Origin: Arcicella rosea
Lineage (GTDB): Bacteria > Bacteroidota > Bacteroidia > Cytophagales > Spirosomataceae
Direction of reading: 5' to 3'
Assembly (NCBI RefSeq): GCF_014204325.1
Contig: NZ_JACHKT010000005.1
Coordinates: 62,001 to 126,000 of the forward strand
DNA: 64,000 bases
A program made the translations under genes and the position numbers. This document shows, piece after piece, positions 31,041 through 42,000 of this stretch (positions are counted from its first letter, which is position 1; each line of letters starts with the position of its first letter). The notes under the pieces were generated by a model. The model was given only the letters and a program-made list of their open reading frames with translations, was not told where the DNA came from and made no database searches.

Positions 31041-31076
31041 GTGGATAATAGTTTATAAAATAGCGTTTAGAGGTTG

Positions 31077-31733
31077 TTAAAGAAATAAGGTTAATATCAA
31101 ACTGAATAATGAAGGATTATTCAGCACAACGTCTCTTAGATGTACTAGTGCTTTGTTGATGTGTGCTTCAATGGTTTTTGTGGCTAATTGTAATTCGTCG
31201 GCAATTTCCTTGTACTTTTTCCCTTCAAAACGATTCATCAGGAAAACCTTTTGGCATTGCGGAGGCAATTGAGCAATGGCTTGTTCTATCTGTTTTTGTA
31301 AATCATCATAGAACAACATTTGGTCGGGTGAAACATTTGATTCAGGAAATTGTAAATCAGTATTTTCGAAAGACTGATTATGATTGCCTTGCTCTTGTTG
31401 TAAATACAAAAAGCAACGATTGCGAACAGAAGTAAATAAATACGCTCTGAAAGAAGTAGTGATATTTAAATAAACTTGGTTTTTCCAGATGTTATAGAAA
31501 ATCTCTCCGATAATGTCTTCGGCCACATCTTTGGCATAAACAAACCTTACAGCATGGCTGCAAAGCGGTTTATAATAGCGATTGTAGAGTAATTCAAAAC
31601 CTTTTTTGGGGTCTTCAATGAAGGCCTGCTTGATAAAGAATTCATCATCCATAACTTTTCCAGACTCAGGCGTATGAAAGGCCTGAGTTTTTGGGAAGTT
31701 ATTTGTTGACTCAGATGATATATTTTCTAACAT
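31077..31733 (-). CDS. ECF sigma-70 factor of the glycan locus
   Basis: This small sigma factor directs RNA polymerase to the alpha-glucan genes once released by FecR. The frame gives 218 aa from the ATG at 31731-31733. Region 2 is at LLYNRYYKPLCSHAVRFVY and EDIIGEIFYNIWKNQ, and region 4 is at QAIAQLPPQCQKVFLMNRFEGKKYKEIADELQLATKTIEAHI. The FecI/SigX-type family of Bacteroidota is closest. Another ATG 66 nt upstream would add a hydrophobic N-terminus, and a third Met lies 28 codons into this reading; the start is not proven. FecR follows after 36 nt. Confidence 0.88.
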   Translation of the reverse strand: MLENISSESTNNFPKTQAFHTPESGKVMDDEFFIKQAFIEDPKKGFELLYNRYYKPLCSHAVRFVYAKDVAEDIIGEIFYNIWKNQVYLNITTSFRAYLFTSVRNRCFLYLQQEQGNHNQSFENTDLQFPESNVSPDQMLFYDDLQKQIEQAIAQLPPQCQKVFLMNRFEGKKYKEIADELQLATKTIEAHINKALVHLRDVVLNNPSLFSLILTLFL

Positions 31734-36489: not shown

Positions 36490-36581
36490 TGAGAAGCCAT
36501 TTTCTGTAGAAAACTGTAGAGAAATATACTCAAAAATTTCACTGAAAATTAAAATCAATTTAAGAAATACTTATAAATGAA

Positions 36582-36701
36582 ATAAGGACAGGAGAAACCC
36601 CCGCCCTTATCTGTTTAACCTCTAAACCTATTTAACTATGAAAATTAATACAAATATAAGCTAAATTCTGGTTATTTAAACATTAAATGTCCCATGAATT
36701 T
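36582..36701 (-). ncRNA. Candidate small RNA, copy 4 of the box-and-hairpin family
   Basis: Read on the reverse strand, a 5' stem (36696-36701 with 36663-36668, extended by GG/CC after a one-base bulge) is followed after 18 nt by the conserved box (36615-36644, core TAGTTAAATAGGTTTAGA) and a terminator-like hairpin (36582-36610). The 11-bp hairpin contains two G.U pairs that exist only on this strand; on the forward strand they would be A-C mismatches. The U-run after it is weak. The rest of the 36490-36819 gap holds nothing else. Confidence 0.55.
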
Positions 36702-40588: not shown

Positions 40589-41149
40589 ATGAAATACCTA
40601 ATTGTTGGTCTTGGAAATATAGGTCCCGAATACTTGCTTACTAGGCATAATGTTGGTTTTATGGTGTTGGATCGTCTGGCGAGTAATTTCGAAGTGAAGT
40701 TTTCGATAGGGCGTTTAGCATATCATGTAGAAATTAAACATAAAGGAAAACAAATTCATTTAATTAAACCAACCACTTACATGAACTTGAGTGGCAAAGC
40801 GGTGAATTATTGGATGAAAGAATTAAAAATCGAAAAAGAGAATACTTTAGTCATTACTGATGATATTGCATTGCCTTTTGGTAAGCTTAGGACAAAGGTA
40901 AAAGGTTCACATGGAGGCCATAATGGTTTACGTAATATTGAAGAAGTATTGGGTTCTCCAGCTTATCCCCGTTTGAGGTTTGGAGTTGGTGATGATTTTG
41001 GTAAAGGAAGACAAATAGAATACGTTTTAGGAAATTTTGAAGGTGTACAATTAGATGAATTACCAGAACATCTTGACCGTGCTATAGACATTATTTTGAG
41101 TTTTTGTTTACAAGGTGTAGATAAGACAATGAATGCTTTTAATCAATAA
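40589..41149 (+). CDS. pth: Peptidyl-tRNA hydrolase
   Basis: This 186-aa enzyme recycles tRNA by cleaving peptidyl-tRNA released from stalled ribosomes. Family motifs are visible: VGLGNIGPEYLLTRHNVGF at the N-terminus with the catalytic His, KPTTYMNLSGKAV, VITDDIALPFGKLR and GSHGGHNGLRNIEE. The length is standard. It begins 56 nt from the divergent palindromic promoter and stands alone. The 868-nt gap downstream holds the small-RNA-like units. Confidence 0.96.
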   Translation: MKYLIVGLGNIGPEYLLTRHNVGFMVLDRLASNFEVKFSIGRLAYHVEIKHKGKQIHLIKPTTYMNLSGKAVNYWMKELKIEKENTLVITDDIALPFGKLRTKVKGSHGGHNGLRNIEEVLGSPAYPRLRFGVGDDFGKGRQIEYVLGNFEGVQLDELPEHLDRAIDIILSFCLQGVDKTMNAFNQ

Positions 41150-41524
41150 TTGGATTATTCAAAGAATTTCAAAGAAATCGAAAATAATTTATAACAAAAC
41201 TTTTGCAATGTTTTTGTTATGCAAGCAGAATAATATTTCGATTGTAATAGTTTTTGTTTCGGAATTAAGTGTTTTTCTGTTGATTTTTAGGTAGTTACTA
41301 CTATAAAATTGGAAAGTCTTAACTCAAATCATTTGCATATTTATATAATATTGCAGAACTTTGCATCGTTAATCAAGTAAATGAATCTTTGTACAAAACC
41401 ACGAATTATTTTTTTATTAATTTTAAAAAATAACTAAAAAAATAAACTTTTTTCAAATAAAAATTGTAGTATTGTTACAGAGAAACGATAAAGCAATTAA
41501 TTGATAGTCGTTTAGTAAAATAGA

Positions 41525-41661
41525 AAATTATACATCGTTTATGAAGTTTGAATAGATTCATCCACCAGCGACGATTTGTTGATATAATTTAAGAATTTTC
41601 ATAGTTAAATAGGTTTAGAGGTAAGATGGAAAGGGCGTTTCTTTTGGAGACGCCACTTTTT
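41525..41661 (+). ncRNA. Candidate small RNA, copy 1
   Basis: AAATTATA (41525-41532) pairs with 41583-41590, and ATCGT/ACGAT pair inside. The conserved box follows at 41596-41626, then hairpin GGCGTTTC/GAGACGCC (about 41634-41654) with a T-run to 41661. A promoter-like TTG (41361) to AATCTTTG (41384-41391) lies further upstream. Confidence 0.55.
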
Positions 41662-41670
41662 GAAAATTAA

Positions 41671-41801
41671 AAGCTAAGTTTTGTGAATTTGGAATTGTGT
41701 TGAAAAAACTTAGTTTCTTAAATTGAATAGTTATTTTTCATAGTTAAATAGGTTTAGAGGTAAGACGGGAAAGGGCGTTTCTTTTAGAGACGCCTCTTTT
41801 T
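41671..41801 (+). ncRNA. Candidate small RNA, copy 2
   Basis: A 12-bp stem (41671-41682 with 41705-41716, including one G.U) is followed after 18 nt by the conserved box (41735-41765), then hairpin GGCGTTTC/GAGACGCC (about 41773-41794) and a T-run. The loop of the first stem contains GGAATTGTGTTGAA, similar to copy 3. Confidence 0.58.
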
Positions 41802-41808
41802 GAAAAAC

Positions 41809-41952
41809 AGTTAGAAGAATCAGGAAATGTGTTAAAGAAAAGAGTTTGTTCTTCTAATTTCTAAAAAATAAAGGTGCAGTTATTTTTCATAGTTAAATAG
41901 GTTTAGAGGTAAGATAATAAAGGACGTAGCCATTGGTTATGTCCTTTTTTTG
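41809..41952 (+). ncRNA. Candidate small RNA, copy 3
   Basis: An 11-bp stem (41809-41819 with 41849-41859) has a different sequence from copy 2 but pairs equally well. The box is at 41884-41914. The terminator hairpin AAAGGACGTA/TATGTCCTTT (about 41920-41946) ends in seven T. The loop of the first stem has GGAAATGTGTTAAA. Confidence 0.6.
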
Positions 41953-41963
41953 TGCTGTAAAAA

Positions 41964-42000
41964 CAGAAAGCCCTTCGTAACAGATACGAAGGGCTTTCTG
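41964..42000 (-). terminator. Terminator of rlmB
   Basis: CAGAAAGCCCTTCGTA (41964-41979) pairs perfectly with 41985-42000, giving 16 bp and a 5-nt loop; on the reverse strand a run of five T follows. Confidence 0.88.

Follow-up and report, generated by a model that had tools for sequence, protein, structure and literature searches.

We describe a family of putative small RNAs (sRNAs) with a conserved box and a covarying hairpin, which forms tandem arrays in several genera and is related in sequence to the FopS RNAs of gut Bacteroides, which adjust sugar uptake. The array under study lies between pth and an rlmB-type gene of the freshwater bacterium Arcicella rosea, within the window (the whole stretch of 64,000 nucleotides that was analysed). 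As a small-RNA family with covarying structure, it is well supported at the level of sequence. In the reading that we favour and judge to be probably correct, the units are a divergent, array-forming relative of FopS; they would form the 3′ part of a precursor transcribed from what is probably a single promoter about 180 nt after pth, and would pair with gene starts via UUUUUCAU/AUGAAAAA.

Three tandem units between pth and an rlmB-type gene

The 5′ neighbour of the array is pth, encoding peptidyl-tRNA hydrolase (40589-41149, + strand; Pfam Pept_tRNA_hydro, 207.9 bits), and the rlmB-type gene downstream matches Pfam SpoU_methylase. Between the two, an earlier note made from the sequence alone had read three tandem copies at intervals of 139 and 149, each with a GC-rich hairpin and a U-run after the box. 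Both observations were borne out: three direct copies of about 73 nt each (predicted 70-75 nt) stand in register at 41590-41662, 41729-41801 and 41878-41950, with these spacings, and every unit is made up of a 5′ box, then the GC-rich hairpin, then the U-run. The putative sRNA units, all on the + strand, are located at 41588-41661 (unit 1, CATAG at 41600, 86.1 bits), 41727-41801 (unit 2, CATAG at 41739, 97.6 bits) and 41876-41950 (unit 3, CATAG at 41888, 85.7 bits), the scores being those of R1, a covariance model built on 27 distinct units. The box is present in all three, as the earlier note had it, although its length was underestimated: the core CATAGTTAAATAGGTTTAGAGGTAAGA is 100% identical in units 1-3 over 27 nt, rather than 18 nt.

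Searching the 5.3-Mb genome for this 27-mer with up to three mismatches returned the three array sites and one copy with two mismatches, and the reversed control returned none. This fourth copy (36580-36652, - strand; 71.5 bits with R1) is of a solitary type, in which the box is followed by GGTTAAAC, and it is adjoined by a -7 element, TATATTTG, at 36658-36651 (-). A fifth, more diverged copy is found on a separate contig (L160:1501-1574, -; 46.5 bits), bringing the whole-genome total to five copies with box, hairpin and U-run: three in the array, one and one. The fifth copy has a changed 5′ end without UUUUUCAU, and two genes adjoining it have PHROG matches of unknown function; it may be a phage-borne variant or decoy.

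Two further features flank the units. A perfect 16-bp inverted repeat (repeat I6, 41964-42000) between the array and the rlmB-type gene probably acts as a two-way terminator. Upstream of the array, the stretch 41417-41436 shows 84-85% complementarity to the 5′ part of the second and third units, which in AT-rich DNA may be chance.

Distribution of the units and covariation of the hairpin

An exact 25-mer scan of the genome collection yielded 15 contigs (two of them from one assembly), each with 2-6 copies and titled Arcicella, Flectobacillus, Pseudarcicella, one Cellulophaga record or Cytophagales bins. The earlier note had named a covariance-model search as a way of checking the family, and this search, run with R1, found matches within the family Spirosomataceae in 59 of 200 genomes and in 11 of 36 genera. 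At E≤0.01, R1 matched 11 of 291 genomes of the order, two of them weak matches from beyond the family; at E≤0.05 it matched 4 of 345 genomes of the phylum, namely the own genome and, weakly, three others. Units follow pth across several genera. The box comprises 27 contiguous invariant columns in 27 distinct units, an invariance that comes partly from sampling since loci were found by exact match to most of the box; it varies in the units of L329-L331. In L327 and L328, weak matches from another family of the order, AATAGGTTTGA and a hairpin are kept and UUUUUCAU is not.

The hairpin after the box is maintained by covariation. In the homologue alignment, eight of eight pairs show change on both sides. 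Of 500 shuffles, 39 did as well on this measure, and none did so on any of the four further measures. Hairpin cells are paired in 92.6% of cases compared to 67.9% in shuffles and 40-61% in slid versions, and the covariation score is 0.861 versus 0.345 in shuffles. Because 45 of 200 paired hairpin cells are G-U, the forward-strand assignment is supported: 200 of 216 cells can pair on the forward strand and 155 of 216 on the reverse strand, so that the strand argument previously made from G.U pairs holds in homologues. The 5′ part is predicted to be mostly unpaired in copies 1 and 2, with weak predicted pairing in copy 3 and in the solitary copy. Each unit would be a trans-acting, FopS-type RNA, with a mostly single-stranded 5′ stretch, UUUUUCAUAGUUAAAUAGGUUUAGAGGU, ahead of its own Rho-independent terminator.

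Hairpins in the spacers

Two hairpins occupy the spacers on the + strand: one between units 1 and 2 (41671-41716; arms 41671-41682 and 41705-41716, 12 bp) and one between units 2 and 3 (41809-41859; arms 41809-41820 and 41848-41859, 12 bp). The helix score of each exceeds all 60 of 60 dinucleotide shuffles. The first stem is as previously described, and the second has 12 bp by our count instead of the 11 claimed. Whole-spacer folding energy gave weaker results, with shuffles as good or better in 2 of 200 cases (41671/41716) and 11 of 200 (41809/41859). The stem of 8+5 bp proposed before copy 1 is unsupported, as 25 of 200 shuffles fold as well or better. A loop motif, GGAAnTGTGTTrAA, is indeed found in both spacers of the window, but in 0 of 17 other loci (≤2 mismatches).

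Among 27 spacers of at least 45 nt, cut at variant boxes, 11 contain a long helix at p<0.05 against shuffles, and in these 11 the 5′ arm starts 0-9 nt after the preceding U-run. The combined p of 1e-6 presumes independence, which does not apply to these related sequences. When 12 spacers were set in register, at least two standard pair types occurred at 8 of 10 positions; these spacers were hand-picked and registered by eye, include two with p>0.05 (L008 and one of L017) and omit L015 at 3400 (p 0.033). Since the spacers were chosen, the count of 112 paired cells among 120 is inflated; what informs is how varied the pair types are. The idea that pairing is kept while the sequence differs is real for part of the arrays, where the stems covary, and does not extend to all spacers. 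Support for the spacer stems comes from the helix test and covariation; whole-spacer folding energy over all spacers gave none (mean z -0.16). Some spacers, in L008, L015, L017 and L018, hold variant units in which the box is split by an insertion (CATAGTTAAGCGAAACGTCGCCCGATAGCTTTAGAGGTAAGA in L017).

Because the same box and hairpin often occur without a clear spacer stem, we assign the stem to the spacer and not to the unit. The unit of 120-145 nt envisaged earlier, comprising stem, box and hairpin, is replaced by one of about 73 nt that comprises the box and the terminator hairpin.

A candidate promoter downstream of pth

A TTTG-N20-TAnnTTTG-like element (-33/-7-like, ≤1 mismatch) lies 178-194 nt past the pth stop in 17 of 20 loci, both with and without an intervening protein gene; it was not found at this distance in the other three, L329 (which has one at 174), L330 and L331. 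TAnnTTTG is described as the -7 consensus in PMC9723704. The window's version, TTTG ... GAACTTTG at 41332-41363 (+), is one mismatch from TAnnTTTG and is the candidate single promoter of the array.

In eight loci (L011, L013, L105, L141, L102, L147, L331 and L332), a protein of 154-161 aa, judged by eye to be of secreted type, is encoded between pth and the units (for example L011:3344-3808, L141:1021-1494 and L147:1025-1486). Six of the eight proteins were compared and are related (L331 and L332 were left out), and the three that were scanned matched no Pfam family over the cut-off. The first unit begins within about 30 nt of the protein-gene stop in L011, L105, L141, L102, L147 and L331, about 70 nt after it in L013 and far off in L332. 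The window is without this gene, and a decayed copy in its 450-nt gap was considered and rejected (best tblastn E 0.10). As the promoter-like element keeps its distance from pth and the first unit lies near the protein-gene stop, we infer one promoter and a 3′-UTR origin of the array.

Copies fall into two classes, solitary ones with their own -7 element and array units without. All 23 solitary copies (box then GGTTA) carry TAnnTTTG at -18 to -11 before CATAG, and none of the 23 has a TTG at the usual 17-23 nt before this element. TAnnTTTG is found within 32 nt before CATAG in none of the 66 array-type units. This distinction bears on an alternative in which each unit is an independent sRNA gene with a non-canonical promoter of its own, the tandem arrangement being local duplication and no common precursor existing. 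Such a model, which we consider possible but rather unlikely, would account for the full terminator in each unit and for the recurrence of GCAGTTATTTTT before one copy in many arrays, and GibS is described as having a non-canonical promoter (PMC11697453). It is hard to combine with the 66 array units lacking TAnnTTTG, with a near-invariant sequence before CATAG that amounts to the directly adjoining TTTT, and with the promoter-like element at a fixed distance from pth.

Under the single-promoter reading that we favour, most transcription of the array (three copies here, 2-6 elsewhere) would start at one promoter some 180 nt past pth, and the array would make up the 3′ portion of a precursor; in related genera this precursor would also encode the small secreted-type protein. 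Units could then be released by cutting or by partial termination, with the spacer hairpins assisting, although a terminator in every unit is an awkward fit with a through-running precursor. Several copies would give a higher sRNA dose, and the solitary copy with its own -7 element would be an independently controlled version.

Sequence relation to FopS

The window has no Rfam match at gathering scores, and the earlier note, made without searches, knew of no described family that fits. Below those scores there is one: the box and layout align with FopS over the full length, and with the 5′ ends of GibS and BTnc231 of Bacteroides. According to PMC11697453, the FopS RNAs are about 65-70 nt long, number 14 paralogues and have an unpaired 5′ seed and a terminator; the paper reports them within Bacteroidaceae and in one phage. 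The three array copies align end to end with the FopS model (RF04319) at 25.3, 22.7 and 16.0 bits, short of the gathering value of 56, and scores elsewhere are similar (26.5 bits in L141, 27.5 in L148, 27.8 in L105). Of the three copies, unit 3 is the one that matches FopS (25.3 bits) and BTnc231 (RF04180) best; the latter model, aligned to copy 3 together with the hairpin at 41964-42000, outscores all other Rfam models here (37 bits, E 8.9e-6; gathering score 80.4). GibS (RF04182) matches at 22.4 bits, below its gathering score of 115. Other Rfam matches (TtnuHACA12, cow-rumen-3, rimP and others) were set aside as chance.

The relation was also examined with an HMM of the units against FopS and FopS-like genes, taking 21 of 30 FopS-model loci, 18 of which had usable sequence and several of which are near-identical. 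Ten of the 18 genes scored above all 1000 dinucleotide shuffles; 14 had at most 3 of 1000 shuffles as good, and the other four had 12, 37, 133 and 363. Conversely, R1 hits four of five FopS genes tested in the correct place, at 17-21 bits (E 0.15-0.61). With the strict-filter search, the FopS model found no match at E≤0.05 in the own genome. Among 395 genomes of the phylum it matched 20, 5 of them over the cut-off and the other 15 weakly; three of these weak matches, L116, L117 and L118, have the same box and hairpin. The weak hits L119, L122-L124, L126 and L130 look like chance and were rejected.

Could the resemblance reflect convergence on AUGAAAAA, a common start of exported proteins, instead of descent? 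UUUUUCAU simply complements AUGAAAAA, the sequences are AT-rich and the scores are low, all of which fits this explanation. However, the match extends past UUUUUCAU via UAG.UUUA..GGU.AA into the hairpin, for most of the FopS genes examined it scores better than dinucleotide shuffles, and further families of the phylum contain some weak matches that share this layout. We therefore regard convergence as unlikely. Descent from a common RNA, as in our preferred reading, suggests that the FopS-like family is older and wider than described. Searches of open-access PMC articles turned up no work on RNAs of this kind in Arcicella, Flectobacillus or the family to which both belong.

Candidate targets

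FopS represses SusC-type transporters at the start codon, and the RRM protein RbpB binds FopS (both as reported in PMC11697453). By analogy, mature RNAs would pair via UUUUUCAU and the next A/U-rich box with AUGAAAAA... starts of sugar-uptake or sugar-use genes, blocking initiation as FopS does. SusC starts, although the main FopS target class, were rejected as the main targets here, as they showed no enrichment: the box duplex was -10.8 kcal/mol for 30 SusC starts (those given as loci out of 40 matches over the cut-off, with start codons assigned by a simple signal-peptide criterion, which fails for L055 at least) versus -11.0 for 96 other starts (at least one gene counted twice), with p=0.54. 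Shuffled boxes did as well on SusC starts in 32 of 200 cases. Near-complements of the box in the genome numbered 49, including the four copies themselves, compared to 63 for the reversed control, hence no excess.

Gene starts within three mismatches of the box complement gave a different picture in the own genome, where 7 of 14 belong to sugar genes versus 3 of 25 for a control pattern with its upstream half reversed (p=0.014), the sugar categories having been set after the hits were seen. The seven are an aldose epimerase, two GFO/IDH oxidoreductases, three MFS transporters and a SusC-type receptor (L042). With two relatives pooled, the figures were 13 of 47 versus 3 of 25 and not significant (p=0.11), counting as non-sugar three of 33 starts in relatives that went without a Pfam scan (L251, L294 and one of L232). 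The control L193, which has a NANM match over the cut-off, was classed as sugar like the NANM among the real hits; as non-sugar it would lower the control to 2 of 25, with p=0.005 (own) and 0.045 (pooled). Omission of starts seemingly internal to longer frames (control L215 and L217, own L254, relative L251) changes the two p values to 0.013 and 0.12. Sugar-gene targets are at this point only suggested by the sequences.

The strongest of the 126 starts tested is a candidate target within the window, the start region (31045-31078, -; ATG 31040) of an anti-sigma gene of FecR type that precedes a susC-like gene, with a predicted box duplex of -24.6 kcal/mol versus -17.4 for the next. Its three closest FecR relatives reach -21.6, -16.4 and -13.4 kcal/mol (30 FecR-type loci, longer stretch). 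More distant paralogues reach -21.2 (L185) and -20.1 (L187) kcal/mol, and because they too attain -20 to -21 the conservation of this pairing is suggestive only. As a separate observation, two starts in L232 (G036) at 1508 and 1736 (-), belonging to neighbouring short GG-motif peptides, come close to full complementarity with the box; one of them has a single mismatch.

RRM proteins and phage copies

The own genome encodes one RRM_1 protein (L050:1375-1716; 66 bits). Its best matches among solved structures are eukaryotic RRM proteins, and the matches also include 7JLY, an RNA-binding protein from Porphyromonas (E 2.6e-13). We sampled 61 genomes of the family, 20 with the sRNA and 41 without; RRM_1 was present in 10 of 10 genomes with at least three copies, in 3 of the 10 that have one or two, and in 22 of the 41 that lack the sRNA. 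Counted by genus, the link between copy number and RRM_1 is 6/6 versus 2/5 (p=0.06). As RRM_1 was not found in 7 of the 20 carriers, the protein is not required for the sRNA, and it may go with copy amplification.

These data speak to a further explanation, in which the array is a sponge or binding platform for an RRM-type protein, with the box as the protein site and copy number setting how much protein is held. A conserved box exceeding the need of a short seed (27 invariant columns, at loci found by mostly exact box match), the binding of RbpB to the homologous part of FopS reported in PMC11697453, and the sampled excess of RRM_1 in genomes with at least three copies agree with a sponge. 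We nevertheless consider it improbable, given the carriers lacking RRM_1, the near-equal frequency of RRM_1 in genomes without the sRNA and the p of 0.06 for the per-genus link.

Copies also occur in viral DNA: a 38.8-kb viral contig (portal, terminase, dUTPase) has box and hairpin at L191:4718-4794 (-), followed by tRNA-like genes, and the phage GenBank collection gave matches at chance level only (E 0.3). That the units are a non-functional repeat element, mobile or palindromic, spreading in intergenic DNA is highly improbable, for although they are repeated, AT-rich and hairpin-bearing, and are also present on a viral contig and within phage-like DNA, just five copies occur in 5.3 Mb, units follow pth across genera, covariation favours one strand and the -7 element is kept in 23 of 23 solitary copies.

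A broader hypothesis and comparison with known systems

We tentatively put forward a more far-reaching hypothesis, which as a whole is doubtful. FopS, GibS, BTnc231 and the present units would belong to a phylum-wide ancestral sRNA family that has become polycistronic here: a promoter about 180 nt after pth would drive a gene whose 3′ UTR has turned into a series of identical seeds, released from one another at covarying spacer hairpins, copies would have expanded only where an sRNA-counteracting RRM protein is kept, and phages would carry copies. With a syntenic relative that forms arrays in Cytophagales, the FopS family would date further back in Bacteroidota, and free-living strains would be at hand for testing it. 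Tandem units would represent a way to raise sRNA dose, as opposed to scattered paralogues, and carriers with and without the RRM protein would make the proposed antagonism between sRNA and RRM protein testable by comparison.

Rfp18 of Flavobacterium psychrophilum, described in PMC9723704 as needed for normal levels of two protease mRNAs, is a conserved sRNA of another Bacteroidota group. With GibS (RF04182; PMC7366714), whose second seed is named R2 in PMC11697453, the units share the 5′ end UUUUUCAUAGU..UAG, whereas the middle part aligns poorly. BTnc231 differs in that a 43-position middle part of its 154-nt model is absent here.

The closest comparison is with FopS. The units differ from it in box detail and score below its gathering value, they stand in tandem arrays with spacer hairpins, SusC starts are not enriched, and some carriers are without the RRM protein. 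They share with FopS the 5′ UUUUUCAU box, an unpaired 5′ part followed by a Rho-independent hairpin (predicted here; described for FopS in PMC11697453, section 8), a length of about 65-75 nt (predicted here) and several copies per genome, together with the TAnnTTTG element (here at the solitary copy), 3′-UTR-linked members and phage-borne copies.
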